Positions 11,138 to 40,984 of a stretch of 41,820 nt of DNA are shown here, one piece after another. Positions within the stretch are counted from its first letter, which is position 1. Every line of letters begins with the position of its first letter. The translations under genes were made by a program, and so were the position numbers. Below the pieces are notes generated by a model that ran no database searches, was not told the DNA's origin, and saw nothing but the letters and a program-made list of their open reading frames with translations. Origin of the DNA: Hylemonella gracilis ATCC 19624. GTDB lineage: Bacteria > Pseudomonadota > Gammaproteobacteria > Burkholderiales > Burkholderiaceae_C. The DNA is taken from positions 1 through 41,820 of the forward strand of contig NZ_AEGR01000073.1 of NCBI RefSeq assembly GCF_000211835.1. Direction: 5' to 3'.

Positions 11138-11174
11138 GCACCCAGTGGCCCGGCCAAGCCGGTTCCACGGGTGC
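11138..11174 (+). repeat. 37-nt structured intergenic element, copy A
   Basis: Nested hairpin between fcs and the SDR gene. The outer stem is GCACCC/GGGTGC (11138-11143 with 11169-11174), the middle stem GTGG/CCAC and the inner stem CCGGC/GCCGG (11150-11154 with 11158-11162) with loop CAA. It is preceded by a C-rich/G-rich hairpin lead (11099-11137). It has the same geometry as copies at 22479, 33799 and 40948, and lies in transcript orientation. Confidence 0.75.
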
Positions 11175-11194
11175 TCCCGTATGGATATCTGCTT

Positions 11195-11210
11195 GCTCGA
11201 AATTTCGAGC
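11195..11210. promoter_or_regulatory. Perfect 16-bp palindrome before the SDR gene
   Basis: GCTCGAAATTTCGAGC is an uninterrupted palindrome ending immediately before the ribosome site (GAGGAG at about 11212-11217) of the SDR gene. It could be an operator for an internal promoter or an RNA hairpin affecting initiation. No binding protein can be named. Confidence 0.5.
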
Positions 11211-11225
11211 TGAGGAGCATCGGTC

Positions 11226-11990
11226 ATGAAGATAGAAGGACAAGCTGCGCTCGTGACGGGCGGCGCCTCGGGCCTCGGCGAAGCAACCGCGCGCGAACTG
11301 GCCCGGCTCGGCGCCAAGGTGACCGTGCTGGACGTGAACGCCGCCGCGGGTGCCAAGGTGGCGGCCGACATCGGCGGCCTGTTTCAGACCTGCGACATCA
11401 CCAGCCCCGACAGCGTCAGCGCTGCGTTGGCCCAGGCCGAAGCCCAACACGGCCCCGCCCGCATCCTGATGAACATCGCGGGCATCGGCACGGCCAAGCG
11501 CATCGTCGCCAAGGACGGCAGCCCAGCGCCGCTGGAAGAGTTCGCCCGCGTGGTGAACATCAACCTGATCGGCAGCTACAACGTCAGCCGCCTCTTCGCC
11601 GCCGCCTGCGCCAAGTTGCCTGTGCTGGAGGAAGGTGAGCGCGGGGTGATGATGTTCACGGCCTCGATCGCCGCCTACGACGGCCAGGTCGGCCAGCAGG
11701 CCTACAGCGCCTCCAAGGGCGGCATCGTGGGCATGACCTTGCCCATGGCGCGGGACCTGGCACAACATGCCATCCGCGTCTGCACGATTGCGCCGGGTCT
11801 GTTTGCCACGCCCTTGGTGAAGGAACTGCCAGCGGAGGTGCAGCAGTCGCTCGCCGCTTCCATTCCCTTCCCCAAGCGCCTGGGCGAGCCCGAGGAGTTC
11901 GCGCGCTTGGCCTGCCACATCGTGACCAATGGGCACCTCAACGGCGAAGTCATCCGGCTCGACGGCGCGCTGCGGATGGCGCCACGATAA
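11226..11990 (+). CDS. Short-chain dehydrogenase, HSD10/type II 3-hydroxyacyl-CoA dehydrogenase-like
   Basis: NAD(H)-dependent SDR, 254 residues. The cofactor motif TGGASGLG is at 11-18, with LDVN after beta-2 (acidic residue, NAD preference). DI lies at 57-58, NIAG at 83-86, catalytic Ser147 (TASIAAYDG), Tyr160 and Lys164 (YSASK). The insert KDGSPAPLEEFARVVNINLIGSYNVSRL and the end IPFPKRLGEPEEFARLACHI...LNGEVIRLDGALRMAPR are typical of the HSD17B10 group that oxidises 3-hydroxyacyl-CoA. In this cluster it is the natural enzyme for the 3-hydroxy-3-arylpropionyl-CoA made by the hydratase. Good GAGGAG ribosome site. Enzyme class is sure; the aromatic substrate is inferred from context. Confidence 0.9.
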   Translation: MKIEGQAALVTGGASGLGEATARELARLGAKVTVLDVNAAAGAKVAADIGGLFQTCDITSPDSVSAALAQAEAQHGPARILMNIAGIGTAKRIVAKDGSPAPLEEFARVVNINLIGSYNVSRLFAAACAKLPVLEEGERGVMMFTASIAAYDGQVGQQAYSASKGGIVGMTLPMARDLAQHAIRVCTIAPGLFATPLVKELPAEVQQSLAASIPFPKRLGEPEEFARLACHIVTNGHLNGEVIRLDGALRMAPR

Positions 11991-12005
11991 AACCGACCCG
12001 GGGCA

Positions 12006-12045
12006 CGGGCAGCGCCATCTGCCCGGCGTCGGAAACATTTTTCCG
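12006..12045 (+). terminator. Two small hairpins between the SDR and Bug genes
   Basis: CGGGCAG/CTGCCCG (12006-12012 with 12019-12025) is followed by CGGAAA/TTTCCG (12030-12035 with 12040-12045). The pair could be an attenuator or 3'-end stabiliser. There is no proper U-tract, so full termination is doubtful. Confidence 0.35.
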
Positions 12046-12077
12046 CCCCTCGACAACTTCACATTAGGAGACAAACC

Positions 12078-13073
12078 ATGAAACTGAATCGACGTCACTT
12101 CAATCTGGCTCTGGGCGGCGGTGCCGCGTTGGCGGCCTTGCCGTCACTGCCCGCGTTAGCGCAGGCGGCGCAAGTGGCCCAGCCCAAGATCTACTACGGA
12201 TTCCCCGCCGGCAGCGCGGGCGACAGCCTGGCGCGCCGCGTGGCCGACAAACTGGGCGGCACCCCCTATGCACAGAGCAATGCCGTGGTGGAAAACAAGC
12301 CCGGCGCGGGCGGTCGCATCGTGCTCGAAACCCTCAAGACCTCGCCCGCCGATGGCTCCGTGCTGACGCTGGCGCAAGCCTCGGCGCTCACGATCTACCC
12401 GCACGTGTACACCAAGATGAACTACACGATGGCGGATTTCGCGCCCATCTCCATCGGCGCGCAGATGGTGTTCGCGCTGGCCATCGGTCCGATGGTTCCG
12501 GACAACGTGAAAACGCTCAAGGATTTCATCGTCTGGGCCAAGGCCAACCCGGAGAAGTCCAGCTTCGGCTCGCCCGGCGCGGGTTCCATGCCGCACTTCG
12601 TCGGTTCGCTGTTCGGCGTGAATGCTGGCATCACCTTCCAGCACGTGCCCTTCCGCGGCTCGCTGCCAGCCGTGAATGACACGGTGGGCGGACAGATTGC
12701 CGCCTGCGTGACGCCCACCGGTGATTCGCTGGCCCACGCCAAGAGCGGCCGGCTGCGCATCCTGGCCGTCTCCGCGCCCAAGCGCGTGGCGGAACCGGAC
12801 GCACCCACCTTCACCGAGCTGGGTTATCCCGAGATCGTGGCCGAGGAGTGGTTTGGCTTCTTTGCCCCGGCCAAGACACCCTCGAACGTGATCAACGCCG
12901 CGAACACCGCGATCCAGGCCGCTCTGAAAGACAAGGCCGTGATCGACGGTCTGGCCGCCATCGGCTTGGTCGCGGCGGGCAGCACGCCGCAGGCCATGCG
13001 TGCCTCGCTGGAATCGGAGTACCAGCGTTGGGCCCCGCTGGTCAAGAAAGTGGGCTTCACCGCGGAATCCTGA
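12078..13073 (+). CDS. Bug-family periplasmic solute-binding protein, probable Tat export
   Basis: Second TctC-like binding protein of the region, 331 residues. The leader MKLNRRHFNLALGGGAALAALPSLPALAQA has the twin-arginine pattern RRxFxLA, so Tat export is likely. Cleavage is expected after ALAQA. Family blocks: IYYGFPAGSAGDSLARRVADKL, VVENKPGAGGR, a central FGSPGAGSMPHFVG, RILAVSAPKRVAEPDAPTFTELGYPEI. AGGAG lies 7 bp before the ATG. It follows the SDR gene by 87 bp in what looks like the same operon, and is only distantly like the Bug protein at 1336. A hydroxycinnamate or related carboxylate ligand is inferred from position only. No tctAB genes are present in the window. Confidence 0.9.
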   Translation: MKLNRRHFNLALGGGAALAALPSLPALAQAAQVAQPKIYYGFPAGSAGDSLARRVADKLGGTPYAQSNAVVENKPGAGGRIVLETLKTSPADGSVLTLAQASALTIYPHVYTKMNYTMADFAPISIGAQMVFALAIGPMVPDNVKTLKDFIVWAKANPEKSSFGSPGAGSMPHFVGSLFGVNAGITFQHVPFRGSLPAVNDTVGGQIAACVTPTGDSLAHAKSGRLRILAVSAPKRVAEPDAPTFTELGYPEIVAEEWFGFFAPAKTPSNVINAANTAIQAALKDKAVIDGLAAIGLVAAGSTPQAMRASLESEYQRWAPLVKKVGFTAES

Positions 13074-13087
13074 TCTTGTCGGCTCGC

Positions 13088-13119
13088 GCCCCGGCCGGGC
13101 TTCTCAGCCTTGCCGGGGC
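13088..13119 (+). terminator. Possible terminator between Bug gene and marR
   Basis: GCCCCGGC (13088-13095) and GCCGGGGC (13112-13119) form an 8-bp stem with a 16-nt loop, followed by GTTCTTC. The stem is strong but the U-tract weak, so it may act only partly and leave some readthrough into marR. Confidence 0.4.
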
Positions 13120-13141
13120 GTTCTTCATCCATGATGTCCTG

Positions 13142-13687
13142 ATGTCGTCCTATTCCACCGTCTCAACACCCCCAAGCCGCCCTGCCAAACGAGCCCCCAC
13201 TCGCGAGAGCGCGCGCGGCAAGCGCGCTGCCACGCCGAAAGAGCTTGGGTCCGCAGTGGACCAGGTGGACACCAGCTTCCTGCAGACCCTGGTGGGCTAC
13301 GGCGCGCGGCGCGTCTCGCTCGCGGCCATCGCCAGCTTCCTGCCGCGCATGGCCGCCTATGAACTGCGTCCGGTCGAGTTCTCCGTGCTCTCGCTGATTC
13401 ACCACAACCCTGGCATCACCTCGCGCCAGCTTTGCAGCGTGCTCAACATCCAGCCACCGAATCTGGTGGGCATGCTGCAGCACTACGAGAAAAAGCGTGG
13501 GCTGATCGAACGCCGCCCGCACCCCAGTGATGGCCGCGCCCTGGGCCTGCATCTGACGACGGCGGGCCGTCAACTCGCGCGCAAGGCCGAACACGCGGCC
13601 AGCCAGAACGACGCCCAGGTCACCGCGCGGCTGAGCGCGGCCGAGCGCCGCACCCTGTTGCGCCTGCTGGAAAAAATCTACCTCTGA
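13142..13687 (+). CDS. MarR-family transcriptional regulator
   Basis: Winged-helix regulator, 181 residues from the ATG at 13142. The N-terminal 40 residues are basic and Ser/Pro-rich, without family match. The MarR core follows: RRVSLAAIASFLPRMAAYELRPVEFSVLSLIHHNPGITSRQLCSVLNIQPPNLVGMLQHYEKKRGLIERRPHPSDGRALGLHLT, containing helix-turn-helix and wing (R-R-x-x-x-x-S-D-G-R). MarR proteins such as CouR sense hydroxycinnamoyl-CoA and repress their catabolic genes. Its place at the end of the cluster, and the operator-like palindrome at 8375-8403, support that job here. Ligand and target are inferred. No strong ribosome site is seen at this start, so the exact N-terminus is less certain. Confidence 0.85.
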   Translation: MSSYSTVSTPPSRPAKRAPTRESARGKRAATPKELGSAVDQVDTSFLQTLVGYGARRVSLAAIASFLPRMAAYELRPVEFSVLSLIHHNPGITSRQLCSVLNIQPPNLVGMLQHYEKKRGLIERRPHPSDGRALGLHLTTAGRQLARKAEHAASQNDAQVTARLSAAERRTLLRLLEKIYL

Positions 13688-13708
13688 ACCCGCCCCGGCG
13701 CGGTTCAC

Positions 13709-13732
13709 ATCGGCCGCCTATATCGGCCGCCT
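13709..13732. repeat. Tandem 11-bp repeat downstream of marR
   Basis: ATCGGCCGCCT occurs at 13709-13719 and again at 13722-13732, a 13-bp period. Each unit contains the palindrome CGGCCG. It lies between the marR stop and the promoter of the next gene. It could be an operator pair or a weak terminator stem. Confidence 0.5.
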
Positions 13733-13775
13733 TCGTTCTTTTCGCACGCCTGCGGTCTTCCCTTAGCTATGAATG

Positions 13776-13804
13776 TTGTAGCACGCGGAAAACTGCGCTA
13801 TATT
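13776..13804 (+). promoter_or_regulatory. Putative sigma-70 promoter of the HxlR-like gene
   Basis: TTGTAG (13776-13781) and TATATT (13799-13804) are separated by 17 bp. The -10 is five of six to consensus; the -35 is weak. A start near 13811 fits the coding start chosen at 13859 and argues against the in-frame ATG at 13769. Confidence 0.45.
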
Positions 13805-13858
13805 GCGCCTCCCTCCGCCCCGCCTAGGCCCCGCCTATTTCACCGCGCAGCTCTTCCC

Positions 13859-14233: not shown

Positions 14234-14274
14234 TCAGAAAGAAGCAAGCCGGTACACATTCCACCGGCCCGGCT

Positions 14275-14964: not shown

Positions 14965-14977
14965 GTCGCACCTCGTT

Positions 14978-19026: not shown

Positions 19027-22000
19027 TCACGCCAGCGTCTCCCAGTGGCCTTGTGCGTCCAGCAAGGCGATGCGCACGGGTTCGCCGGCGCAAGCAGCGC
19101 GCACGGCATCGCCATAAGCCCGAAGCTGCGCGAGCATCTGCGCGCGCGTGACCTCCGCGGCCTGGGCATAACTCGCGGACTTGTAGTCCAGCACCCACCA
19201 GGTGCCATCCCGATGACGCACCAGGCGGTCGATGCGCCTAGCCTGCCCCTCAATCGTCACGGGCACTTCATTGGACCACCAGGCGACGTCGGCACCGCGC
19301 CAGACCCAGGCCCCCGCCCCGTGCACGATGCGACGCGCCATGTCGGCGGCTTGGCGGGCCTGTGCGGGCGTCAGTCCTTGCTCGGCGCCGGCACGCTCCA
19401 GCTGGGCCGGGCTGAATTCCGCCGTGTCCAAGGCGGTCCACTCCAGCAGGCGGTGCATGGCCGAGCCGATGCGCGCGGCCAAGGCGTCTTCCTCCGACGA
19501 AGGTGCGAGCACCGGCACGGGCTGATACCGGATGTCGGGCAAGACCCGCAGCACGATGGCCGACGACGCGGCTGGGGCCGCGACGGCTGGCTCGTGCTGG
19601 GTGGGCGCGCCCGCCTCGCGGCCATCCATGTCGCTCACGCGGCCCATGCCCTCGAAGCGAGCGACACCATCGGCAGGCGACTGAGGGGGTGTCGGCTCCC
19701 AAGGCTGGCACTCATGCAGCAAACGCTGCCACCAGCTTTTGCCCTCGGTGTTCTGCTGGTGGGGCTGCACGGCAGAGAAGACCAATTGGGCTCGTGCTCG
19801 AGTGAGCGCGACATAGAGCATGTTCAACTCCTCGCGCCCTCGCGCGGCCCGCTCTCGCGCATGAGCCTCCCGCGCGCTGGGCGGCAGGCGCTCCTCCTTC
19901 TCGCTGGCCAGGAAGACGAAGCTGCGGGGCGCCGACGCCTCGCCGGGCCAGTCCAGCAGCACACTCATGGTCTGGGCGCGCTGCGGCGGCGTGTCGGTGT
20001 CGAGAATGAGCACGGTCTCGGCTTCCAGCCCCTTGGCGCCATGCACGGTGAGCAGGCGCACCGCGCCTCCCTCGGGCATGGGCTGCGCGGGGGCGGGCAA
20101 GCGGCCCGCGCGCAAGGCCCGCACCAAGGCGTAGGGTGTGGCGTAGCGTCCGCCGTCAAACTGCAAGGCTGCTTCAAGCAGTGCCTGCAAATGGGTCTGC
20201 ACGCGTGCTCTCAAATGCGGGGGCGCAGCCGCGGCGTAACGCGCCACCACGTCGCCATCGGCGTAGATCGCGTCCAGCGCGTCGTGCGGCGGCAAGGTCC
20301 GCACCCACTGTTGCCAGCGTTGCAGACGCGGCCCCACCTCGCGCAGATCCGCGTGGGCCCAGGCCGCGGGGGGCGTGGTTTGCAGCAGGTCGAACCAGGC
20401 CTGCTTGCCGCCACGCTGCCGCGCCGCGATCTCCAGCAACGCCGTGTCATCCAGGCCCAAGTGGGGCCCGAGCAAGGGCGAGCGCAGCACCCGCGCCAAT
20501 GACAAGTCATGGCCGGGCGACACCAGCACGTCCAGCAAGGCGGTGAGGTCCTGCACCTCGGGCGCGGCGCCCAGATCTGCCTGCTCCGGCTGGGTGGCGG
20601 GCACGCCCAGGGCCAGCAGCTCGGCTTGCATGGCCACCAAGCGGTCGCGCTTGCGCGCCAACACCATGACTTCCTTGGGGGGCAGACCGGCCTCGATGCG
20701 CTGCGCGATCCAGCGGGCGGCCTGCCGGCACTCGCGTGCGCGCAACGTGTCCTCGGGCGTGAGGCGCGGCGCGAGCAGGCTGTCGCGCCAGACGGTGGCG
20801 GCCTCTTTCTTGTCCCGGGCTTGGCGCTCGATCGGCGGCAGGACCCAGGCTTGCCCGGCCTGCGTGGATTCGGTGGTGTGCGCACGAAAGCCCTCGTACT
20901 CCCCTTGAGACTGCGCCTCACCCAGCACCGCGTTGACCCGCGCCAGCACGGCGGGGGCGTTGCGGCGTGTGTGGTCGCAGGCCAGGAGATCACCGCCCAG
21001 GGCCTGCACGAAACTCTGCGCGGCCCGGAAGATCTGCGGCTCGGCGCGGCGAAAGCGGTAAATGCTTTGCTTGGGGTCACCCACGATGAACAAGCGCGGA
21101 GCGCCGCCCGCCCCGCTCGCACCGCCGCCCACGCCCGCGTAACTCGAGAGCCAGGCATGCAGGGCTTGCCACTGGAGCGGGTTGGTGTCCTGGAACTCGT
21201 CGATCAGCAAGTGGCGCGTGCGCGCATCCAGGCGCTGCTGCAGCCAGGCGCTCAGCTCGGAGCGCTCGAGCAAGTGCAGGGCCGCGCGCTCCACATCGCT
21301 CATGTCCACCCAGCCGCGCTCGCGCTTCAAGGCGGCGTATTCCTCCAACAGGATGCGCGCCAGGCGGATCATGCGCTGCTGGTGCACCCAAGCCTCGTGC
21401 TGCTGCTGGGCTTGCAACAAGGGCTGCAGCTCGGCCTCGGCTTGCTGGGCCGCGGGGTATTTCTTGAGGTGTTGCGTGAGCCGGTCCGCCTCCGCCACGA
21501 ACACGGCCTTGCGCAAGGCGGCCAGCCGCTGATCCGCGTCCGCTTGCTGCGTGAACGCCTGTTCGATGGCCTGCGCGGCGGTTTGCGGCGTCTTGTTCTT
21601 TTCCTGCCCCAGGACCTGAGCCCAGGCTCGCCAACGCGCGGCGACGGCTTCGCTCAACAAGGCCTGAGACGGCAGGGCCAAGCCACGGAACATCGGAAAC
21701 ACCTCCGCGAAGCCGGGCACCGACGTCTCGACGTTGCCCGCCGCGTCGGCCAAGGCGAACTCCACGCGCTTGTCCAAGACGGCCTCCAACGCCTTTTCGG
21801 TTTGGCTGCGTCCATGGCGGGACACCACGGCCTGGTAGTCCGCCAAGACAGTGCCGCCTTGGTCTTGCTCGCGCAACAAGCGCGCGTGGAAGGGACGCCA
21901 GACCTGGGCTTTCACCTCGTCGTCGTTTTCCAGCAATTCATAGGCGGCGGGCAATCCCAGTTCTTCCAGCACCGCCAGCGGGGCATTGCGCAGCAAGGCC

Positions 22001-22428
22001 GCGAACCAGCTGTGGAAAGTGCGGATCTGCACGGCCCGCCCCTGCTGCAGCAGGCGCAGATGCAGGCCGCGCAAGGGAGCGATGAGCACGTCCACGCGCG
22101 CCTGCTCGACGCCGCGCGCGCGCAACTCCGCGCGCAGTTGATCGTCGTCGTAACACGCGAATGCCGACAGCCACTCCGTCAGGCGCTGGCGCATTTCACC
22201 CGCGGCCTTCTTGGTGAAGGTGATGGCCAGAATCTCATGCGCCTGCGCGCCATCGTCGCCCTGTTCGCCCAACAAGGCGCGCAGGATGCGCGAGACCAGC
22301 ATCCACGTCTTGCCCGCGCCCGCGCAGGCTTCCACGGCGACATGGCGCCTGGGGTCGCAGGCGATGGCGTAAAACGCCTCGCGGCTGACGTGCCTGCCGT
22401 TGTGTTCGTAAGCGGCTTGCATATTCAT
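19027..22428 (-). CDS. addA: UvrD-family helicase-nuclease (AddA-type)
   Basis: Helicase/nuclease subunit for double-strand-break end processing before RecA loading. 1133 residues from the ATG at 22428, which has GGAG 8 bp upstream; an ATG at 22446 adds six residues. Motifs in order: Walker A EACAGAGKT (about 33-41), LAITFTKKAAGEM (Ia), LLIDEFQDTNPLQW (II), FIVGDPKQSIYRFRRAEP (III), LLTVHGAKGLEAETVLILD (V), LYVALTRARAQLVFS (VI). The C-terminal RecB-like nuclease domain carries GSAMHRLLEW and RRIDRLVRHRDGTWWVLDYKSASY, with the catalytic Asp-Tyr-Lys. The addB gene lies just upstream, so the two form an AddAB-like pair. The intervening gap holds copy B of the hairpin element. Confidence 0.9.
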   Translation of the reverse strand: MNMQAAYEHNGRHVSREAFYAIACDPRRHVAVEACAGAGKTWMLVSRILRALLGEQGDDGAQAHEILAITFTKKAAGEMRQRLTEWLSAFACYDDDQLRAELRARGVEQARVDVLIAPLRGLHLRLLQQGRAVQIRTFHSWFAALLRNAPLAVLEELGLPAAYELLENDDEVKAQVWRPFHARLLREQDQGGTVLADYQAVVSRHGRSQTEKALEAVLDKRVEFALADAAGNVETSVPGFAEVFPMFRGLALPSQALLSEAVAARWRAWAQVLGQEKNKTPQTAAQAIEQAFTQQADADQRLAALRKAVFVAEADRLTQHLKKYPAAQQAEAELQPLLQAQQQHEAWVHQQRMIRLARILLEEYAALKRERGWVDMSDVERAALHLLERSELSAWLQQRLDARTRHLLIDEFQDTNPLQWQALHAWLSSYAGVGGGASGAGGAPRLFIVGDPKQSIYRFRRAEPQIFRAAQSFVQALGGDLLACDHTRRNAPAVLARVNAVLGEAQSQGEYEGFRAHTTESTQAGQAWVLPPIERQARDKKEAATVWRDSLLAPRLTPEDTLRARECRQAARWIAQRIEAGLPPKEVMVLARKRDRLVAMQAELLALGVPATQPEQADLGAAPEVQDLTALLDVLVSPGHDLSLARVLRSPLLGPHLGLDDTALLEIAARQRGGKQAWFDLLQTTPPAAWAHADLREVGPRLQRWQQWVRTLPPHDALDAIYADGDVVARYAAAAPPHLRARVQTHLQALLEAALQFDGGRYATPYALVRALRAGRLPAPAQPMPEGGAVRLLTVHGAKGLEAETVLILDTDTPPQRAQTMSVLLDWPGEASAPRSFVFLASEKEERLPPSAREAHARERAARGREELNMLYVALTRARAQLVFSAVQPHQQNTEGKSWWQRLLHECQPWEPTPPQSPADGVARFEGMGRVSDMDGREAGAPTQHEPAVAAPAASSAIVLRVLPDIRYQPVPVLAPSSEEDALAARIGSAMHRLLEWTALDTAEFSPAQLERAGAEQGLTPAQARQAADMARRIVHGAGAWVWRGADVAWWSNEVPVTIEGQARRIDRLVRHRDGTWWVLDYKSASYAQAAEVTRAQMLAQLRAYGDAVRAACAGEPVRIALLDAQGHWETLA

Positions 22429-22478
22429 CAAACGCACTCCATCCATCTACCCGATGCGCCCTGCTCACCCAGCCCAGG

Positions 22479-22515
22479 GCTCCCGTGGAACCGGCTTTGC
22501 CGGGCCAATGGGAGC
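22479..22515 (-). repeat. 37-nt structured intergenic element, copy B
   Basis: Minus-strand copy between addB and addA. The outer stem is GCTCCC/GGGAGC (22479-22484 with 22510-22515) and the inner stem CCGGC/GCCGG (22491-22495 with 22499-22503) with a 3-nt loop. It is preceded on the minus strand by a CCCCC-TCA-GGGGG hairpin. Relative to copy A the outer stem changes A-T to T-A while keeping pairing. Confidence 0.75.
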
Positions 22516-22569: not shown

Positions 22570-25317
22570 CTATGCATTCCAAAAATCCTTGCGGCACAGG
22601 CCGCGCGCGGCGCAGGTGTCGCACACGGCACCCTCACCCAGCGGCGGCAAGGGCGCGCCCTCAGCGAGGCGCGTCACATCGTGCACCAGACCTTGCAGCA
22701 AAGCCACGCGGGCCTGTTCGATCTCTGGCTGCTCGTGCAGCCGCGTTTCGCCCTCGCCCACGTTGACGTAGGCCGCGCGCAGATTGGCGACCGACACAAC
22801 CTGAGAGGGCAAAAACGCCGCGCCTTCCCCCTCCGACGCGGACAACAGCGCCGCGTAAAACGCCAGCTGCGTGTCCTCCAGCGCCTCCTTCACCCGGTTG
22901 CGGGTGGTCTGCTCGGCCTCGGTCTTGTAGTCCATCACCATGAGCGCACCCGAAGCCCGGTCCACCCTGTCTAGCCGGCCGAAAAGCGTCACGATGTCCA
23001 GCGCCTGTTCGGCCGGATGTTCTCCCAGCGCGAAGCGCCAGCCCTCGGCTTCGTGGGTGACCAGCCAATCGAGATAGCCCTCGCGCACCCGAGGCCACGC
23101 GGCCTGGTAGGGCAGGAACTCGTCGTCGGCCAGGCGCTGCTCGCGGGCGACGGCTTGCGCCGCCGCGTCCAATCGCGCGGCGCGGTCCTCCCGGCTGGCA
23201 CCGTTGGGTGTGTCCTGGACATGGAAGGTTTGCAGCACGGCATGCAGCCAGAGGCCGAAGTCGCGCTTGTCGAGTTCACCTTCCATTTCCTCGGCTTCGC
23301 GCAGCCCGAGGAGACGCAGCGCATGGAATCGGTAGGGGCAATGACGCAAGTCCTGGTAGGCACTGGCCGACAGCCGCGTGGGCCGCAGTGTTTCGTTCCA
23401 GGGTGGAGCCAAGCGAGGCGCGGGCTTGGCAATGGGCGCTGGCACCACCGCGCGGCGTTCGCGCGGATCGGGTGCCGAGCCCACCAGCACCATGGCCTGT
23501 GCCGCGGTCACGTCATCGGCCTCGCGCGCGCTGACCCACCCCGCCTGCGCGCGTTGCTCCCCGCGGGCTTGCCACTGCAGCTGCAGAACCAGGGGACTGG
23601 CCAAAAGCGGTTCGCCATCCGAATCATGGCCTCGCCACAGAATGTCGATGGGGCAGGCACGCGACACAGCCTCGTCCCACGCGGCCTGCTGCGCCGCCCG
23701 CAGAACCTCGCGCGTGGGCAGGCCCAGCGCGGCGCGTTGTGCGGCGGTCCACGGCCCCGTGGGCTCCGGCGCGGCGGGCAGGCTGCGCTCGTCGCACCCT
23801 GGCAGCACGATGGCCCCGAAGTCGCGCCCCAGCATCTGCGCCAGGGGCAGCAGGACGGCCTGTTCGCGCAAGGGGTAGGCTGGCTTGAAGATCGCGGATT
23901 CCAGCGCGCGGTCCACCCAGCCCGTGAACTCACTCAAGGACCAGCGCCTCCGCGCCCAAAGCGCCTGCGGGGGCAGCTGCGGCGTGGCTTGACCGGTTTC
24001 GTCCAGCGCGTAGTGCAAGGCCCGGGACACTTCGAGTCCAGCCTCGTCTTGGATCAGCGTGTCCCAGATTCCGCACAGGCTCAGCAGGGCATGCAGGGCC
24101 TCCAGCCACTCCTGCAGGGTGCGCGTGCTCCGGCCCCCGGTCAGAGCGGCGCGCCAACCTTCGGTGTCCCGCAGCAGGGCCTGCAGCACGTTCCCCTCGA
24201 GCTGGGCTGGCGACGCTTCGGCCAGGCCCGCCGCGGCATGCCGCCACAAACGCCGGGGCTGGCGGCGCAAGGCGGCCTCCAATGCGCGCAGGGCTGTCTC
24301 GTCGCACGCCGGTGCGTGCTTGAGCCAGTCGAGCACGGCGTCGCTCCCCGCATCGCGCGCGCAAGCGCGCAATGCGGTCATCAGCTGCGCGCCAGCGCGG
24401 GTGGTCGACAGCTTCCAGCCGGTCTCGTCGCGCATTTGGACGCCATGGCGCGCCAGCATGGCCCGCACCCTGCGCGTGAGCGCCCGGTCGATCACGGCGA
24501 CGGCCACGGGTGCACGACCGGCCTGCAGGTGACGCAAAACACACGCGGCCGCGCGTTGCGCCTCATCGGCGGCGTCGATGGCGTCATGCACGGCATGGGC
24601 ACCGCCACGGACATCGGACACGGACGCGGATGCCGCGGGGGCGAAACTCGCGGGGGCGTCCAGCACGACGAGGTCGTCTCCCCAGGTTAGACACAACCCT
24701 TCCACCAGGGGGTCCGGCTGCAGCCCAGGCAATACCAGCAGGCAGTCGGTCGAAGCCCGCGCCTGCGATGAAAAGAACACATCGCTGCCATAGGAAGAAT
24801 TCACCACCCAGGCCACGGCGATCTGAGCGACCGCGGCCTCCAGCCGCAGCACTTCGCCTTCCAGAGCATCGTCGAGGCCGGCGCGCGCGGCCTGCGCAGC
24901 CCCGTCGCCCCAGACAGCCCGTTGCGCGGGGGGTTGCGCCGCCGCCAGCGGCGCCAGCTGCTGAGCCGCTTCCAGCAACATCGGCGCCGCCACCGCCGCA
25001 CGGGCACCCAGGCCCGCCTGCTCGAGCAGCACGTGCGCCGTCAGCAAGTCCAGCGCGGGCTTGAAGCGCAAATCCGCGCCATCCGGGCCTGGCTGCCCCC
25101 CCTGGGCATCGGCCGCACCTGCGAGGGCCTGGGCCCAGTTCTGGGTGGTTTCGAAGCGCGGCGCGAAACCCGCGGGATGCAATTCCCCCCACAGCCGCGC
25201 CGCCACGGGCATCAGCTGCGCATAAGGCAGCAACACGACCGCGCGGGCGGGGTGAACCCGCCGCTCGCGCAAGGATTCAGCGACCGCCTCAAGCCAGCGC
25301 CGCCAACGATGGTTCAT
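22570..25317 (-). CDS. addB: PD-(D/E)XK nuclease family protein (AddB-type)
   Basis: Partner subunit of AddA, 915 residues from the ATG at 25317 (MNHRWRRWLEAVAESL). An ATG at 25389 would add 24 residues reaching toward trxA. The N-terminal region has a helicase-like fold remnant (VVLLPYAQLMPVAARLWGEL) but no intact GxGKT, so ATPase activity looks lost. The middle part contains GAIVLPGCDERSLPAAPEPTG, the AddB counterpart of motif V. The C-terminal nuclease domain starts at SASAYQDLRHCPYRFHALRLL and has DKRDFGLWLHAVLQTF and ALMVMDYKTEAEQTT (catalytic Asp-Tyr-Lys). Its end C899-x2-C902-x5-C908, with the cysteine of RHCPYRF, forms the four-cysteine iron-sulfur set known from AddB. It is probably co-transcribed with addA. 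Confidence 0.88.
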   Translation of the reverse strand: MNHRWRRWLEAVAESLRERRVHPARAVVLLPYAQLMPVAARLWGELHPAGFAPRFETTQNWAQALAGAADAQGGQPGPDGADLRFKPALDLLTAHVLLEQAGLGARAAVAAPMLLEAAQQLAPLAAAQPPAQRAVWGDGAAQAARAGLDDALEGEVLRLEAAVAQIAVAWVVNSSYGSDVFFSSQARASTDCLLVLPGLQPDPLVEGLCLTWGDDLVVLDAPASFAPAASASVSDVRGGAHAVHDAIDAADEAQRAAACVLRHLQAGRAPVAVAVIDRALTRRVRAMLARHGVQMRDETGWKLSTTRAGAQLMTALRACARDAGSDAVLDWLKHAPACDETALRALEAALRRQPRRLWRHAAAGLAEASPAQLEGNVLQALLRDTEGWRAALTGGRSTRTLQEWLEALHALLSLCGIWDTLIQDEAGLEVSRALHYALDETGQATPQLPPQALWARRRWSLSEFTGWVDRALESAIFKPAYPLREQAVLLPLAQMLGRDFGAIVLPGCDERSLPAAPEPTGPWTAAQRAALGLPTREVLRAAQQAAWDEAVSRACPIDILWRGHDSDGEPLLASPLVLQLQWQARGEQRAQAGWVSAREADDVTAAQAMVLVGSAPDPRERRAVVPAPIAKPAPRLAPPWNETLRPTRLSASAYQDLRHCPYRFHALRLLGLREAEEMEGELDKRDFGLWLHAVLQTFHVQDTPNGASREDRAARLDAAAQAVAREQRLADDEFLPYQAAWPRVREGYLDWLVTHEAEGWRFALGEHPAEQALDIVTLFGRLDRVDRASGALMVMDYKTEAEQTTRNRVKEALEDTQLAFYAALLSASEGEGAAFLPSQVVSVANLRAAYVNVGEGETRLHEQPEIEQARVALLQGLVHDVTRLAEGAPLPPLGEGAVCDTCAARGLCRKDFWNA

Positions 25318-25447
25318 GCTTTCTGTCACAATCCCGCGCACTGTAGCCGCATCGCCCGCTTGCCTTGATATTGAGGCAGCCCGACCCATCTAGGCCAGAC
25401 ACGTACTTCATATCCATCGCCATCCACAGCACATCAAGGAGCTCTCC

Positions 25448-33044: not shown

Positions 33045-33743
33045 TCAAGAAGTGGCGACCGTTTGGGTCGTGAGCCGATAGCCGGCGCCGCGCACGGTCT
33101 CGATCATGGGCGCTGCCGCGCCCAAGGCCTCGCGCAGGCGCTTGATGTGCACGTCCACCGTGCGTTCCTCGATGAAGACATGGTCACCCCAGACCTTGTC
33201 CAGCAACTGACCCCGGCTGTGCACGCGCTCGGCATGGCTCATGAGGTAATGCAAAAGCTTGAACTCGGTCGGCCCTAGCTTGAGCAGTTGCTCGTCGTAG
33301 CTGACGCGGTGCGTGGCCGTGTCCAGTTTGAGGCGGCCCGCCTCCAGCGTCACCGCGGCCTGCTCGGGCGCACGGCGACGCAGCACGGCGCGGATGCGCG
33401 CGAGCATCTCCTTGGTGGAAAAAGGCTTGGCCATGTAATCGTCCGCGCCCGCGTCCAGGCCCGCCACGCGGTCGGCCTCGTCACCGCGAGCGGTGAGCAT
33501 GATGATGGGCACGGCCTTGGTGCGCGGGTCTCCGCGCCAGCGCCGCGCCAGGGTCAGGCCACTGGCGCCGGGCAGCATCCAGTCCAGAAGAACGAGATCG
33601 GGCAGCATCGCGTCGATCTCGCGTTGCGCGCTCTCGCCGTCCAGCGCGAGCGTGGGCTGAAAGCCGTTGTGACGCAGGTTGACGGCAATCAACTCGGCGA
33701 TGGCCGGTTCATCTTCGACGATGAGCACAGTAGGTTGCTTCAT
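33045..33743 (-). CDS. phoB: Phosphate regulon response regulator PhoB
   Basis: OmpR-type response regulator, 232 residues from the ATG at 33743 (MKQPTVLIVEDEPAI). The receiver has acidic residues near 10-12, phospho-acceptor Asp54 (LVLLDWMLPG), MLTARG and the conserved lysine of MAKPFSTKE. The effector domain has GPTEFKLLHYLMSHAERVHSRGQLLDKVWGDHVFIEERTVDVHIKRLREAL, with the PhoB-type recognition helix. It binds Pho boxes; two are visible in this window, before pstS and ppx. No Pho box was seen in the gap upstream of phoB (33744-33888), which holds copy C of the hairpin element, so phoB is presumably reached by readthrough from the pst operon. Confidence 0.95.
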   Translation of the reverse strand: MKQPTVLIVEDEPAIAELIAVNLRHNGFQPTLALDGESAQREIDAMLPDLVLLDWMLPGASGLTLARRWRGDPRTKAVPIIMLTARGDEADRVAGLDAGADDYMAKPFSTKEMLARIRAVLRRRAPEQAAVTLEAGRLKLDTATHRVSYDEQLLKLGPTEFKLLHYLMSHAERVHSRGQLLDKVWGDHVFIEERTVDVHIKRLREALGAAAPMIETVRGAGYRLTTQTVATS

Positions 33744-33798
33744 TTTCCAATCGTCCCTGGGACTCCCTGATCCGCTCCGCGGGCCCATCCACGCCCAG

Positions 33799-33835
33799 AC
33801 TCCCGCGCAGCCGGCTTGGCCGCACCGCGAAGAGC
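33799..33835 (-). repeat. 37-nt structured intergenic element, copy C (diverged)
   Basis: Minus-strand copy between phoU and phoB. The outer arms AAGAGC (33830-33835, plus) and ACTCCC (33799-33804, plus) pair with wobbles, and the inner stem is CGGC-CAA-GCCG on the minus strand. It has the same 37-nt frame as copies A, B and D but weaker pairing and no C/G-tract lead. Confidence 0.5.
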
Positions 33836-33888
33836 ATCCCCCAAAACGAGGTGGCGCGACGAACGACGGTGACGGAGCCTGAACGTGC

Positions 33889-34590
33889 TCACTTCAGCAT
33901 GGCCTCGATCTCTTCGATCGTGTGGTGGCGCACGTCCGCGCCCTTGACGATGTAGATGATGAGCTCCGCGATGTTCTTGGCGTGGTCGCCCACCCGCTCG
34001 ATGGCCTTGGCGAGGAACAACAGGTCCAGGCTGCTGGAAATCGTGCGAGGGTCTTCCATCATGTAAGTGATCAACACGCGCGTGAAGCTGCCGAACTCAC
34101 GGTCGATCAGATCGTCCTCGCGCATGATGGCGGCGGCGGCGTCGACGTCCAGGCGAGCGAAGGCATCGAGCGACTTGCGCAGCTGGCTGGCGGCGAGATC
34201 GGCCTCCATGCGCAGGGCCGGCGCGGGCAAGGCGCGCGGCGCACCCGCTTCGAGGATGGACAGCACCATGCGCGCCATCTTCTCAGCCTCGTCGCCGGCG
34301 CGCTCCAGGTTGGCCACGGCCTTGGAGACCGCCATCAGCAGGCGCAGGTCACGCGCCGTCGGCTGGCGACGCGCGATGATGGAGGCAATCTCGTGATCGA
34401 GAGCGATGTCCATGGCGTTGACCTGCTTTTCCAGCAGGATGACTTCACGGGCGGCTTCGGCGTTGAAATGGGCCAGGGCCAGGATGGCTTGCTGAACCTG
34501 GGATTCGACCAGCCCCCCCATTTCCATCACGCGGCTGGAGACGGTGCTCAACTCGCTGTCGAACTGGGTGGAGAGATGTTTGTCGGGCAT
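33889..34590 (-). CDS. phoU: Phosphate transport/signalling regulator PhoU
   Basis: Cytoplasmic helical protein that links Pst transport to PhoR inhibition. 233 residues from the ATG at 34590, with an AGGAG ribosome site. The two repeated three-helix PhoU domains are visible: FDSELSTVSSRVMEMGGLVESQVQQAILAL ... DHEIASIIARRQPTARDLRLLMAVSKAVANLERAGDEAEKMARM, then LDAFARLDVDAAAAIMREDDLIDREFGSF ... LLFLAKAIERVGDHAKNIAELIIYIVKG. The metal-binding E-R-x-G-D-E/H pattern occurs in both. It follows pstB by 53 bp. Confidence 0.96.
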   Translation of the reverse strand: MPDKHLSTQFDSELSTVSSRVMEMGGLVESQVQQAILALAHFNAEAAREVILLEKQVNAMDIALDHEIASIIARRQPTARDLRLLMAVSKAVANLERAGDEAEKMARMVLSILEAGAPRALPAPALRMEADLAASQLRKSLDAFARLDVDAAAAIMREDDLIDREFGSFTRVLITYMMEDPRTISSSLDLLFLAKAIERVGDHAKNIAELIIYIVKGADVRHHTIEEIEAMLK

Positions 34591-34643
34591 GTTGTGCTCC
34601 TGCGGTTCGTTCGGTGTGTCTGCGGTGGGGTCGGCGTCGCCGC

Positions 34644-35504
34644 TCAACCGAAGCGGCCCGTGATGTAGTCTTCCGTCTCCTGGCGCACCGGCTTGAAGAA
34701 GATCTGCTCGGTGTCGCCGAACTCGACCAGCTCGCCCAGGTACATGTAGGCCGTGTAATCGCTGCAGCGCGCGGCCTGCTGCATGTTGTGCGTGACGATG
34801 ACCACCGTGTAATCGTTCTTCAACTCGGTGATCAGTTCCTCGATCTTGCCGGTGGAGATGGGGTCCAGCGCCGAGCAGGGCTCGTCGAGCAGCAGCACCT
34901 CGGGGCGGATGGCGATGCCGCGCGCGATGCACAGACGCTGCTGCTGGCCACCCGAGAGGCTGGAGCCGCTCTGGCGCAGCTTGTCCTTCACCTCGCTCCA
35001 CAGCGCGGCCTTGCGCAGCGCCCATTCCACGCGCTCTTCCATGTCGGCGTCGGACAGCGACTCGAAGAGCTTGATGCCGAAGGCCACGTTGTCATAGATC
35101 GACATCGGGAAGGGGGTGGGCTTCTGGAACACCATGCCCACACGGGCGCGCAGCAGGGCCACGTCCTGCTTGCTGGTCAGCAGGTTCTCGCCGTCCAGCA
35201 GCACTTGCCCCTCCGCGCGTTGCTCGGGGTAGAGCGCGTACATGCGGTTGAACACGCGCAGCAGGGTGGACTTGCCGCAGCCGGACGGACCAATGAAGGC
35301 CGTCACCTTGTCCTTGGGGATGTCGAGGTTGATGCCCTTGAGCGCGTGGAACTTGCCATAGTAGAAGTTCAAGTCGCGCACCGCGATCTTGGACGGAACG
35401 GCGGCGTTCACAGGCGCGGTGGCGGGAGCGTGGGTGGTTTCCATGGCATTCATCACAGGCGTTTCGGGTCCGTGGGCGTGGGTGGAGCGGTCGCTGGCAA
35501 ACAT
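34644..35504 (-). CDS. pstB: Phosphate ABC transporter ATPase PstB
   Basis: ATPase of the high-affinity phosphate importer. 286 residues from the ATG at 35504. The first 38 residues are a non-conserved Ala/Thr/Pro-rich leader, so ATGs at 35453 or 35444 are also possible (E. coli PstB has 257 residues). Walker [10 protein letters not shown] lies at 72-80, Q-loop [23 protein letters not shown], signature LSGGQQQR at 183-190, Walker [13 protein letters not shown] and H-loop [32 protein letters not shown]. All are typical of PstB. Confidence 0.95.
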
Positions 35505-37393: not shown

Positions 37394-37440
37394 GGCGTGC
37401 TGCTTCGCTTCATGCGTTGTTGGAAAAACGCTTCTTGCAA

Positions 37441-37460: not shown

Positions 37461-37465
37461 GGGAT

Positions 37466-38473
37466 TTACTTCACGGTGCTCATCAGCTTGCTGACCTGCG
37501 CCTTCACGCTGGCCGGCATGGGCACGTAGTCCAGGCTTTCGGCGGTGGCGTCACCGTTCTTGTAGGCCCACTCGAAGAACTTCTTCACGGCCTCGCCTTG
37601 CGCGGGCTTGTCCTGCTTGGTGTGCATCAGGATGAAGGTGGCGCCGGTGATGGGCCAGGACTTGGCGCCGGCCTGGTTGGTCAGCACTTGGTAGAAGCTC
37701 TTGTCCCACTGCGCGCCAGCGGCGGCGGCCTTGAAGGTGTCGAAGTCGGGCGCGACGAACTGACCGGCGGCGTTCTGCAGCACGGCATAGCTCATCTTGT
37801 TCTGCTTGACGTAGGCGTACTCGACATAGCCGATGGAGCTGGGCAGGCGGTTCACGAAAGCGGCCACGCCTTCGTTGCCCTTGCCACCCGCGCCCGTGGG
37901 CCAGTTGACGGCGGTGCCTTCACCGACTTTGTCTTTCCACTCGGGGCTGACCTTGGACAGGTAGTTGGTGAACAGGAAGCTGGTGCCCGAACCGTCGGCG
38001 CGGCGCACCACGGCGATCAGCTCGTCTTCCAGCTTGAGGTCCTTGTTGATGGCGACGATGGCCGGGTCGTTCCACTTGGTGATCTTGCCCAGGTAGATGT
38101 CGGCCAGGATGGGACCCGTCAGCTTGAGCTGGCCGGGCTGGATGCCCTTGATGTTCACCACCGGCACCACGCCGCCCATGACCGTGGGGAACTGCACCAG
38201 GCCCTTCTCGGCCAGTTGCTCATCCTTCAGGGGGGCGTCGGACGCGCCGAAGTCAACGGTCTTGGCTTCGATCTGCTTGATGCCAGCGCCAGAGCCCACG
38301 GATTGGTAGTTGATCTGAGCGCCGGTCGCCTTGGCGTAGTCAGACGCCCACTTGGCGTACAGGGGGGCCGGGAAACTGGCACCCGCGCCGGTCACGTTCT
38401 GGGCGAAAGCGACGCCAGCGAAAGCCAGGGCGGCGCTCAGACCCAGGATGCGGAAATTCAAACGAGCTTTCAT
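37466..38473 (-). CDS. pstS: Phosphate-binding periplasmic protein PstS
   Basis: Periplasmic high-affinity phosphate receptor of PstSCAB, 335 residues. Signal peptide [25 protein letters not shown] with cleavage after AFA. Phosphate-contact segments: [54 protein letters not shown]. The end [21 protein letters not shown] is standard. AGGAGT ribosome site, own Pho box upstream. First gene of the pstSCAB-phoU-phoB-phoR unit. Confidence 0.97.
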
Positions 38474-38510
38474 CGAGGACTCCTATGAGGTTGTTTGGAA
38501 AGCAGCCTGA

Positions 38511-38543
38511 ATTTAAGAACCTTTTGTGACGCGTCCGTGACAA
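38511..38543 (-). promoter_or_regulatory. Pho box and -10 of pstS
   Basis: On the minus strand TTGTCACGGAC and GCGTCACAAAA lie as direct repeats (TGTCAC and CGTCAC, 11-bp period), the PhoB-site pattern. A -10-like TTAAAT (38511-38516 in plus coordinates) starts 15 bp after the second unit. PhoB control of pstS is well known in other bacteria. Confidence 0.8.
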
Positions 38544-38679
38544 CCGGGGCGGCGCAGTGTAGCGCGGGGTTCATGGGCTTGTCACACAGAGTGCCCAAGA
38601 TGGGCGCGCTTTCCAGGGTCCGCGTGCGCCTAGCCCACGCGCTCCCTCCAACGATGCCCATGACGACAAGGTCCGCACC

Positions 38680-40887
38680 ATGAACCCAAGCCACACCCCC
38701 TTCACCCCCGCCATCGACCCCGACGAAGTCGGCTACAACCCCTGCACGCAGGCGCCGCTGGAAACCCTGATCGCCACGCGCATGAGCCGGCGCGGCCTGC
38801 TGCGCGCTGGCACGGCGGGCGCCGCCATGCTGGGCGGCATCAGCGGCCTCGGCTTCAGCCCCTTGGCGACAGCGGCGCCGGCGCAAGGCGCGGCACCCGA
38901 TCTCAGCTTCGGCACGGTGGCGAAGCACCTGGAAGACCGGGTGGCGGTCCCTCCCGGTTACACAGCCCGCGTGCTGTACCGCCTCGGCGACCCCATCGCC
39001 GCGGGCGTGTCCGCCTACAAGAACGATGGCACGGACGATCCGGCCAGCTACGACCGCCGCGCGGGTGACCACCACGACGGCATGACCTGGTTCGGCATGG
39101 ACGCGCAAGGCCGCTGGGCCTCGCAGGCCGCCGACCGCGGCCTGCTGGTGATGAACCACGAGGCCATCACCCCGGCGTTTCTGCACGCCACGGGTCAAAC
39201 CATCGTCGGCGCGAAGGACGAAGCCCGCCGCACGGATGCGCGCGAGGTCCAGCGCGAGTTCTACCTGCACGGCGTGAGCGTGATCGAAACGCAAAAGAAG
39301 GGTCAGGCCTGGAGCTACCGTCAAGACTCGCGCTACAACCGGCGCATCCACACGCTGACCGAAATGACGCTCTCGGGCCCCGTCGCGGGCACCGATTTCG
39401 TGAAGACGAAGTACGCGCCCGACGGCAGCAAGACTCGCGGCACCGTGAACAACTGCGCCAACGGCACCACGCCCTGGGGCACCTACCTCACCTGCGAGGA
39501 AAACTGGGCCGGCTACTTCCGCCGCCTGGCTGCCGACGACGCCCGTCGCAGCGCCAAGGAACTCGCGGCGTTCAAACGCTATGGCGTGTCGGGGGCCGGC
39601 CGCGAGGGCTGGGCCACGGTGGGTGACGATGACCTCTACGCCCGCTGGAACACCGAGGTGCGCGGCGCCAGCGCCACGGAGGACTTCCGCAACGTCAGCA
39701 ACACCTACGGCTGGGTGGTGGAGATCGACCCGTTCAACCCCAAGAGCGCGCCGAAGAAGCGCACCGCCCTGGGCCGCTTCGGCCACGAAGGCGCCTGCCT
39801 GGGCCCGGTTGTGCCCGGCCAGCCCCTGGTCTGGTACATGGGCGACGACGCGCGCAACGAGTACATCTACAAATTCGTCTCCGCCCGCAACTGGGACCCG
39901 AAAGACCAGGGCAAGGGCACGGCGGCGGGTGACAAATACCTGGACGAGGGCACGCTCTACGTCGCCAAGTTCAAGGACGATGGCAGCGGCGAATGGCTGG
40001 AACTGAGCTTCGGCAAGAATGGCATCGACGCCGACAACAAGTCCTATGCCTTCGCGAACCAAGCCGACGTGCTGGTGCACGCCCGCCTGGCGGCGGATGC
40101 CGTCGGCGCCACGCGCATGGACCGCCCCGAATGGACCGCGGTCAACCCGCGCACCGGCGACGTGTATGTGACGCTGACCAACACCAACGCCCGCTCGCGC
40201 CCGATCGACAAGACCAGCGCGGCCAACCCCCGCCACTACAACGACCCCAAGAACGGCAAGGACGGCAAGAAGGAAGACCAGTGGGGCAACCCCAACGGCC
40301 ACATCGTGCGTTTCGCCGACGCGGGTGGCAAGCCGACCTCCCTCGCCTTCCAATGGGACGTTTACCTCTTCGGCGCGCGCGCCGGCAGCTCGCCCGACGT
40401 GAACCTGTCAGGCCTGACGGCGGACAACGACTTCTCCAGCCCCGATGGCCTGTGGTTCAGCCAAGCCGTGCCGGGCCTGGCCTGGCTGGAGACCGACGAT
40501 GGTGCCTACACCGACGTCACGAACTGCATGCTGCTGGCGGCCGTGCCGGGCCAGGTGGGCGATGGCGGCAAGCAGACCGTGGTCAACATTGGCCCGGGCA
40601 ACACCCGCACGCAAGACACCTACGTTGGCGCCCAAGCCAACCAAAAGGGCACGCAACTGCGCCGCTTCCTGGTCGGCCCCAAGGGCTGCGAGATCACCGG
40701 CATCGCCGAATCGGGCGATGGCCGCGCGCTCTTCATCAACATCCAGCACCCCGGCGAGAACACGCTGGACGCCGACATCGGCGACCCGTCCAAGTTCGAG
40801 AGCCACTGGCCTGACGGCGGCAACGCCCGTCCCCGCTCGGCGACCGTGGTGATCACGCGCGACGACGGCGGAAGAATTGGAGTGTGA
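38680..40887 (+). CDS. phoX: PhoX-family phosphatase (DUF839)
   Basis: Secreted calcium/iron-dependent alkaline phosphatase, 735 residues. The N-terminus holds a Tat signal, SRRGLLRAGTAGAAMLGG from residue 36, after a 35-residue lead, as in PhoX. Blocks of the family: FGTVAKHLEDRVAVPPGYTARVLYRLGDPI, DHHDGMTWFGMD, GLLVMNHEAIT, NNCANGTTPWGTYLTCEENWAGYF, GWVVEIDPFNPKSAPKKRTALGRFGHEGA, VYMGDDARNEYIYKFVS (read VWYMGDDARNEYIYKFVS here), GTLYVAKF, RPEWTAVNPRTGDVYVTLTNT and SPDGLWFSQA. It releases phosphate from organic esters and nucleotides outside the cytoplasm. It is divergent from pstS; only one Pho half-site (TTGTCAC, 38579) is seen on its side. Confidence 0.95.
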   Translation: MNPSHTPFTPAIDPDEVGYNPCTQAPLETLIATRMSRRGLLRAGTAGAAMLGGISGLGFSPLATAAPAQGAAPDLSFGTVAKHLEDRVAVPPGYTARVLYRLGDPIAAGVSAYKNDGTDDPASYDRRAGDHHDGMTWFGMDAQGRWASQAADRGLLVMNHEAITPAFLHATGQTIVGAKDEARRTDAREVQREFYLHGVSVIETQKKGQAWSYRQDSRYNRRIHTLTEMTLSGPVAGTDFVKTKYAPDGSKTRGTVNNCANGTTPWGTYLTCEENWAGYFRRLAADDARRSAKELAAFKRYGVSGAGREGWATVGDDDLYARWNTEVRGASATEDFRNVSNTYGWVVEIDPFNPKSAPKKRTALGRFGHEGACLGPVVPGQPLVWYMGDDARNEYIYKFVSARNWDPKDQGKGTAAGDKYLDEGTLYVAKFKDDGSGEWLELSFGKNGIDADNKSYAFANQADVLVHARLAADAVGATRMDRPEWTAVNPRTGDVYVTLTNTNARSRPIDKTSAANPRHYNDPKNGKDGKKEDQWGNPNGHIVRFADAGGKPTSLAFQWDVYLFGARAGSSPDVNLSGLTADNDFSSPDGLWFSQAVPGLAWLETDDGAYTDVTNCMLLAAVPGQVGDGGKQTVVNIGPGNTRTQDTYVGAQANQKGTQLRRFLVGPKGCEITGIAESGDGRALFINIQHPGENTLDADIGDPSKFESHWPDGGNARPRSATVVITRDDGGRIGV

Positions 40888-40947
40888 CCTCCCCAGGCTC
40901 CGCTCCCTTCGTTCGCTTCGCCACCCCCTCCTGCTACGCGGAGGGGC

Positions 40948-40984
40948 GCACCCAGCGGCCTGGCAGAGCCAGTTCCGCGGGTGC
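40948..40984 (+). repeat. 37-nt structured intergenic element, copy D
   Basis: Between phoX and ppx, plus orientation. Outer stem GCACCC/GGGTGC (40948-40953 with 40979-40984), middle GCGG/CCGC, inner CTGGC/GCCAG (40960-40964 with 40968-40972), loop AGA. Against copy A, two stems differ by paired changes. The preceding 40888-40947 is a C-rich spacer with a CCTCC/GGAGG-type hairpin, resembling the lead of copy A. Confidence 0.75.

Follow-up and report, generated by a model that had tools for sequence, protein, structure and literature searches.

What are the four 37-nt hairpins that lie between genes in the 41,820-nt contig NZ_AEGR01000073.1 of Hylemonella gracilis ATCC 19624 (the whole of this stretch being the window), and would they act as RNA or as mobile DNA? 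The original prediction, made from the letters of the window, had described them as intergenic copies with compensating base changes and had offered both explanations. We found that each hairpin belongs to a longer repeat that begins directly behind a stop codon and usually reads in the sense of the gene ending there; this stop-codon anchoring, together with the sense orientation, is the new point of the analysis. From sequence comparison we suggest, at a rough probability of 45%, that each of the four hairpins belongs to a copy of a dispersed, modular Burkholderiales repeat resembling BRE (Hot et al. 2011, PMC3110155), and that this repeat would form a sense-strand structure in the 3′ untranslated region (3′-UTR) that caps or stabilises the upstream mRNA.

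Anatomy and range of the repeat

The predicted coordinates and strands held for all four 37-nt hairpins, as did their stems, bulge and loop, but three corrections to the layout were needed. A conserved asymmetric internal loop (1x2, C against TT) separates the 4-bp and 5-bp stems; the middle stem of copy B has a T/C mismatch; and a longer element, starting just after the upstream stop codon, has the 37-nt hairpin as its 3′ part. The whole elements are as follows:

11096..11179, + strand: copy A; 37-nt hairpin 11138-11174; directly after TGA 11093-11095; 72.2 bits
22474..22569, - strand: copy B; 37-nt hairpin 22479-22515; directly after TAG 22570-22572 (minus strand); 71.9 bits
33794..33888, - strand: copy C, diverged; 37-nt hairpin 33799-33835; directly after TGA 33889-33891 (minus strand); 46.7 bits
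40888..40989, + strand: copy D; 37-nt hairpin 40948-40984; directly after TGA 40885-40887; 69.8 bits

All four are single rather than tandem. Copy C is the only one that does not form the 37-nt hairpin by itself (DNA fold z -0.06 vs -4.2 to -5.3 in the other copies); as RNA, copy C folds with z -0.5 and copy A (11096-11178) with z -3.5. In the relative G003 the orthologue of copy C has an intact stem.

Read in the sense of the gene, the usual order is stop codon, 0-12 nt, C-run, GC hairpin, a hairpin of a second C-run with a G-run, and then the 37-nt hairpin, which is often followed by CCTGG. The GC (5′) hairpin usually has the loop CTNCG, a motif present within 70 nt before the 37-nt hairpin in 75 of 80 copies from named genomes. 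The sequence of this 5′ hairpin exists in several versions that look unrelated. The constant part is the 37-nt hairpin at the 3′ side, with an outer stem that varies among GCTCCC/GGGAGC, GCACCC/GGGTGC, GACGCC/GGCGTC, AACACC/GGTGTT and ATCGCC/GGCGAT (alignment A1, which omits L021, L023 and L025 as chance-like pattern matches and L016 as one base shorter). From stop to hairpin end, 64 of 73 copies measure 76-107 nt (39-70 nt plus 37), and the GC content of the last 48+37 nt averages 73.7% over the 80 named copies (range 63.5-82.4). Long forms carry an extra GC module of roughly 60-80 nt ahead of the G-run, several of them with a TCCAAGCCTGCGCAGGCAGGCTTGGA-like hairpin:

Long-form elements: C80:19401, C59:22679, C41:19918 and C74:106266 of the Hylemonella genome itself (G000); L157, L173, L193 and L199 elsewhere

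In the 3.62-Mb genome a core pattern matched exactly at 18 places and its reversed control at none, and a covariance model built from 24 copies gave 41 matches there (E 8.7e-13 to 0.045; 150 of 5639 candidates scored). The hairpin repeat is therefore not a chance product, and the further copies on which the original prediction had staked itself do exist. Among 60 genomes around this one, with at most 100 candidates scored in each so that counts are lower bounds, 32 were positive and all belonged to its own family: 23 of 26 in the genus (this genome included) and 9 of 10 in other genera of the family, with none of 24 positive in other families. Copies per genome ran from 0 to 91 within one genus, again as lower bounds and with some genomes incomplete. 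An order-wide draw, in which 20 candidates per genome were scored and absence is only weakly tested, gave 10 positives out of 300 from three families, namely six of nine in the own family (this genome included), three in family f4 and one in family f3. The f4 copies have the same architecture, mostly with the core GGACCGGC..AGCCGGATCC, and some stand as tandem arrays, such as the 4.3 copies of a 124-bp unit at L284; paired adjacent copies occur at L273, L279, L282 and L291. The tandem unit at L284 (1472-2007) contains the element together with the apparent final codons of the upstream gene.

A near-exact 37-mer scan of the named genomes found at least 117 stretches. Among the 80 loci listed, the carriers whose genus is named are Acidovorax, Pseudacidovorax, Variovorax, Hydrogenophaga, Curvibacter, Xenophilus, Pelomonas/Roseateles, Hylemonella, Caenimonas, Rhodoferax, Giesbergeria and one Methyloversatilis metagenome-assembled genome; the copy in the last (L193), whose name falls outside the Comamonadaceae group, may reflect a mis-binned contig or a transfer. 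Copies also sit on plasmids: seven different records, ranging in size from 91 kb to 1.3 Mb, hold them, and two of these plasmids are typed as conjugative. A search of phages gave no match.

Orientation and stop-codon anchoring

Genes were called with a codon-usage script written for this analysis in place of a standard caller, and a duplicate strain (L212, equal to L195) was removed from the counts of stop distance, C-run, intergenic gap and element-free stops. The 81 copies in named genomes include 57 in sense between co-directional genes and 14 that share the strand of the upstream gene in a convergent pair; three more have no upstream call, two have no downstream call, two lie inside a called gene, two are antisense and one falls in a divergent pair. 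Where both neighbours were called, 71 of 74 copies are in sense with the upstream gene. In the Hylemonella genome a same-strand gene precedes 38 of 41 copies (33 co-directional, 4 convergent, 1 with no downstream call; the others are 2 antisense and 1 inside a call), and the test of orientation that the original prediction had proposed accordingly comes out as non-random. The 30 copies of G003 comprise 27 that are co-directional, two that are antisense and one without a called upstream gene.

With the duplicate out, 71 of the 80 named copies have a same-strand gene end no more than 160 nt upstream, two have one on the opposite strand and seven have none. The first CCCC follows the stop codon by 0-12 nt in 69 of these 71 (median 5), the remaining two lying at 31 and 42 nt, compared with 60 of 426 stops in these loci that have no element, or 21 of 110 when this control is limited to gaps of at least 95 nt. 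Measured independently of the C-run, the distance from the stop to the start of the 37-nt hairpin is 39-70 nt in 64 of 73 copies. The C-run is placed less tightly in G003, at 12 nt or less in 19 of 27. All three stop codons are used (TGA 39, TAA 21, TAG 13; n=73). The sense stop is closer to the element than the next gene boundary is, in co-directional gaps (55 of 56) and convergent gaps (12 of 13) alike. Public annotation agrees with this placement in two of the four plasmid records opened, where the C-run begins 10 nt after the stop of arsC and 4 nt after that of a protocatechuate dioxygenase gene; a third record has no annotation at its copy. In the titles, abstract openings and passages of open papers that were covered, we found no report of the 0-12-nt anchoring or of a sense-only orientation.

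Every window copy does lie between two co-directional genes and reads in the direction of both, as had been predicted, but such neighbours are not special to the element, since the ratio of co-directional to convergent gaps (56:13) is about that at element-free stops (348:88). An operon-specific role was rejected on this ground. The genes beside the window copies are:

9212..11095, + strand: AMP-binding enzyme, upstream of copy A (PF00501, 6.6e-52)
11226..11990, + strand: short-chain dehydrogenase, downstream of copy A (PF00106, 2e-41)
22570..25389, - strand: PD-(D/E)XK nuclease, upstream of copy B (PF12705, 6.7e-36), which we take to be AddB-like
19027..22446, - strand: UvrD-type helicase/nuclease, downstream of copy B (PF00580, 9.3e-44), presumably AddA-like
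33889..34647, - strand: PhoU, upstream of copy C (PF01895, 5e-36)
33045..33788, - strand: response regulator, downstream of copy C (PF00072, PF00486), assumed to be PhoB-like
38680..40887, + strand: PhoX alkaline phosphatase, upstream of copy D (PF05787, 9.5e-133)
41065..41820, + strand: Ppx/GppA phosphatase, downstream of copy D and running off the contig (PF02541, 2.5e-54)

Phosphate-related genes flank two of the four copies (PhoU and the response regulator at 33794-33888, PhoX and Ppx/GppA at 40888-40989).

Stem covariation and turnover of sites

The compensating pair changes first read from the window recur across the genome and the stems covary: in 24 copies 98.3% of pair cells hold standard pairs, 8 of 15 pairs are changed on both sides and 50 cells are double changes. 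No shuffle of 500 was as high in paired share, in double-change cells or in covariation score. At 15 sites shared with G003, differences fall on 12 of 450 paired and 22 of 105 unpaired letters (p 1.4e-9; of the 21 occupied sites, four that were gapped or inverted and two with both-side replacements were left out), and the stems are therefore kept in place. Over 126 distinct copies the 1890 stem cells hold 1826 Watson-Crick pairs, 23 G-U, 18 A-C and 23 others. Since these G-U and A-C departures differ little in number, the covariation is not by itself proof of an RNA role; a strand asymmetry that a first tally had seemed to offer as proof (20 G-U vs 9 A-C) was dropped when more copies were counted. 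For the RNA-level role in the original prediction this means that the sense orientation behind stops favours a part in the gene-end transcript, but that the covariation does not single out RNA.

Sites are long-lived yet gained, lost and converted. Of the 41 sites of the Hylemonella genome, 26 could be aligned to G003, where 21 are occupied (12 found by pattern and nine by reading, all nine then confirmed among model matches), three are empty and two hold other sequence; the other 15 had no paired match in the 1.6 Mb of G003 compared, and since the ranges were chosen partly around known matches this occupancy may be an overestimate. At three or more of the shared sites the 5′ hairpin differs and the 3′ hairpin is much the same, and one site is inverted (G000 C36:7251-7300 vs G003 L415:16229-16278), again with different 5′ hairpins. 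The three empty sites differ over the whole gap, and no clean junction or target duplication was seen in them. The G003 gap that matches copy B holds another hairpin-like sequence directly after the stop, with C-runs and a GGGAGCGGCCCGGCGGCGG part, perhaps from a second repeat family.

At the site of copy A (24 rows, from which the 44-46% identical paralogues L347 and L349 are omitted) the same gene pair encloses the element in this genome, G002, G004, G017, G024 and G025, the copies of G002 and G025 being diverged. Twelve genomes have the pair without an element, its genes 3-27 nt apart; in two of these, G003 and G007, the upstream protein is 96-97% identical. Five have a different next gene, G009 with a diverged element, and one further row is a fragment without the stop. 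Covariance model matches fall at exactly the filled sites. The site of copy D is filled in G003 and G007 and, among more distant homologues, in G012 and G018; other distant homologues have either an apparent intrinsic terminator (by reading) or neither.

A candidate 3′-UTR structure, its rivals and its relatives

Because the element keeps one sense orientation, is anchored to the stop and is indifferent to the next gene, a role at the end of the upstream transcript suggests itself. We infer that it is transcribed and acts by the following steps. It would start under or right behind the ribosome terminating on the stop codon, and with two or three very stable GC hairpins packed into about 100 nt no bare RNA would be left behind the last ribosome. 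Such a barrier could block 3′-to-5′ exonucleases and set or stabilise the 3′ end of the upstream mRNA once Rho has terminated transcription or the transcript has been cut between cistrons; a next gene that lacks its own promoter would be reached by read-through. In E. coli, 3′-to-5′ exonucleases process Rho-terminated 3′ ends (PMC7815308), for which a hairpin stack behind the stop would, by analogy, be a natural end point, and Northern blots in Bordetella detected a transcript of about 80 nt from a BRE-holding region at the BprJ1 locus (PMC3110155). No U-tract follows the element, and efficient termination is unlikely at the 12 of 56 co-directional copies that have at most 40 nt between them and the next start codon. 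Across many genera and whatever the next gene, the element holds one orientation and a window of about a dozen nt behind the stop. Two questions thus become testable: whether a repeat could set the 3′ ends and stability of mRNAs throughout Burkholderiales genomes, and by what process a DNA repeat comes to lie at gene ends.

Several observations weigh against this reading. Two measures are less clear in the shuffles (both-side pairs as high in 1 of 500, pair types in 169 of 500), and the 24 copies were picked by a pattern in which part of the inner stem is fixed and the outer stem free. G-U and A-C cells are near equal (p 0.53), with no sign of selection for pairing in the sense RNA only, and wobble pairs are scarcer than an ordinary structured RNA would lead one to expect. 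Frequent G-T pairs are counted as support for RNA function in a survey of REP sequences (PMC3733652). Eight pairs are changed on both sides at once at two G003 sites, and gene conversion could also keep stems matched. One copy on a Methylibium plasmid is antisense inside an annotated transposase gene, an overlap we take to be incidental; the annotated protein matches only a stretch of HTH_Tnp_1. The copy at G000 C60:105870-105919 and its G003 counterpart (L384:17713) are both antisense to their neighbours. At these two the 5′ end lies beside an apparent start codon, not a stop codon.

A non-autonomous mobile repeat of REP/REPIN or MITE type, in which the hairpin is a nuclease or transposase substrate inserted at gene ends and the tight stem is a requirement on the DNA, would fit the spread from 0 to 91 copies within one genus and the site of copy A, empty in G003, G007 and ten more genomes with the same pair and filled in five others. 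Different 5′ hairpins over a lasting 3′ hairpin, the inverted site, the tandem arrays in another family and pair variants that are almost all Watson-Crick are also what it would lead one to expect. We nevertheless consider it rather unlikely. Random insertion would not yield a single orientation, the insertion target is not a fixed sequence because all three stop codons are used, the empty G003 sites lack a clean junction or target duplication, and at none of 30 Y1_Tnp loci in the genus does a copy lie nearer than about 1.5 kb (Y1_Tnp being the only transposase family searched for). The mobile repeat had been the second alternative of the original prediction; it stays a candidate, with no linked transposase found at these loci.

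It seems very unlikely that the repeat is instead a mostly neutral relic that recombination between gene ends has spread and whose palindrome is kept by gene conversion or hairpin-templated repair. Modules at the 5′ end are indeed swapped between strains, some copies decay (copy C and the site-A copies of G002 and G025) and wobble intermediates are scarce; yet stems change far more slowly than loops at shared sites, the bulge and the 1x2 loop persist though templated repair would remove both, and the sense orientation and stop anchoring would be left unexplained. The C-runs directly after the stop also recall a Rho-loading element or factor-dependent terminator, whose C-rich RNA would recruit Rho and whose hairpins would become the trimmed 3′ end. 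An apparent intrinsic terminator stands in the same place in some homologues of the copy-D site, and terminator-like signals occur in 2 of 14 convergent gaps with an element vs 11 of 40 element-free convergent gaps of at least 60 nt (raw counts). However, the 12 of 56 co-directional copies close to the next start leave too little room for a promoter, and we regard this explanation as distinctly unlikely. A similarly doubtful reading is that of stop-anchored, sense-only RNA modules acting with the terminating ribosome and spreading by a process that recognises gene ends, not DNA sequence. Its first C-run, lying in the ribosome footprint, would compete with the second C-run for the single G-run, and the 3′-end fold would then read out whether the gene is translated.

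The proposed 3′-UTR structure was set against known systems. It shares with intrinsic terminators a GC hairpin just downstream of a stop codon but differs in its lack of a U-tract and in its conserved sequence core; hairpin-plus-T signals occur in just 2 of 56 co-directional gaps with an element and in 2 of 14 convergent ones, and this identity was rejected. Rfam gave no match in the window at the gathering cut-off, and around copy A only weak matches, the best at 16.9 bits vs a cut-off of 98. Integron attC core boxes are of the GTTRRRY type; no such box stands at the outer stem ends in alignment A1, which vary, and an attC site was discarded on that account. Beside the only Y1_Tnp gene of the Hylemonella genome (L029, about 2400-3330, contig C68) lie GTTAGA/TCTAAC-type repeats that recall integron attC cassettes.

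With REP, REPIN and BIME sequences (PMC2817692, PMC3733652, PMC8266576) the element shares short palindromes, some with a conserved bulge, in many intergenic copies, and REPs, too, are found chiefly downstream of coding regions and between genes that are unidirectional or convergent. In some cases a GTAG REP provides the stop codon for a flanking reading frame, and untagged REP-like families exist, with Bordetellae among their carriers (PMC3733652). The present element is unlike them in its one orientation to the gene, its narrow stop distance and its make-up of two or three hairpins. At the hairpin base in alignment A1 a G-run and a short variable GC or AC link stand in place of a GTAG or CGTC tag. 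Y1_Tnp genes occur in 25 of 26 genomes of the genus, and none of their 30 loci searched for a linked RAYT, the single one in this genome (L029) included, has a copy. A REP/RAYT identity was rejected on the missing tag and the absence of copies near these loci.

The element is probably BRE or its Comamonadaceae branch, judged on the published description of BRE rather than its letters. BRE is a dispersed, usually intergenic, GC-rich repeat of about 90 bp (75-91 in Bordetella) found singly or in tandem in Bordetella and in Comamonadaceae (Acidovorax, Polaromonas, Delftia, Rhodoferax), with no divergent gene pair in Table 3 of its report, some repeats wholly within coding sequences and one B. pertussis copy at 3605317-3605401 (PMC3110155). 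The likeness extends to host range, in the named Comamonadaceae loci and the other Burkholderiales families among the ten positive genomes, and to tandem copies, as in the L284 array and the paired loci. The mean GC of BRE in Bordetella is 69% (63.7-78.9), so that its ranges overlap with, but do not equal, the 73.7% and 76-107 nt found here, and its description (section 14) is without stop-codon anchoring, sense orientation, hairpin modules or covariation; its authors propose no function. Small dispersed repeats are commonly regarded as debris between genes or as REP-type mobile DNA, and the 3′-UTR reading would give the BRE of 2011 an anatomy and a hypothesis for what it does.

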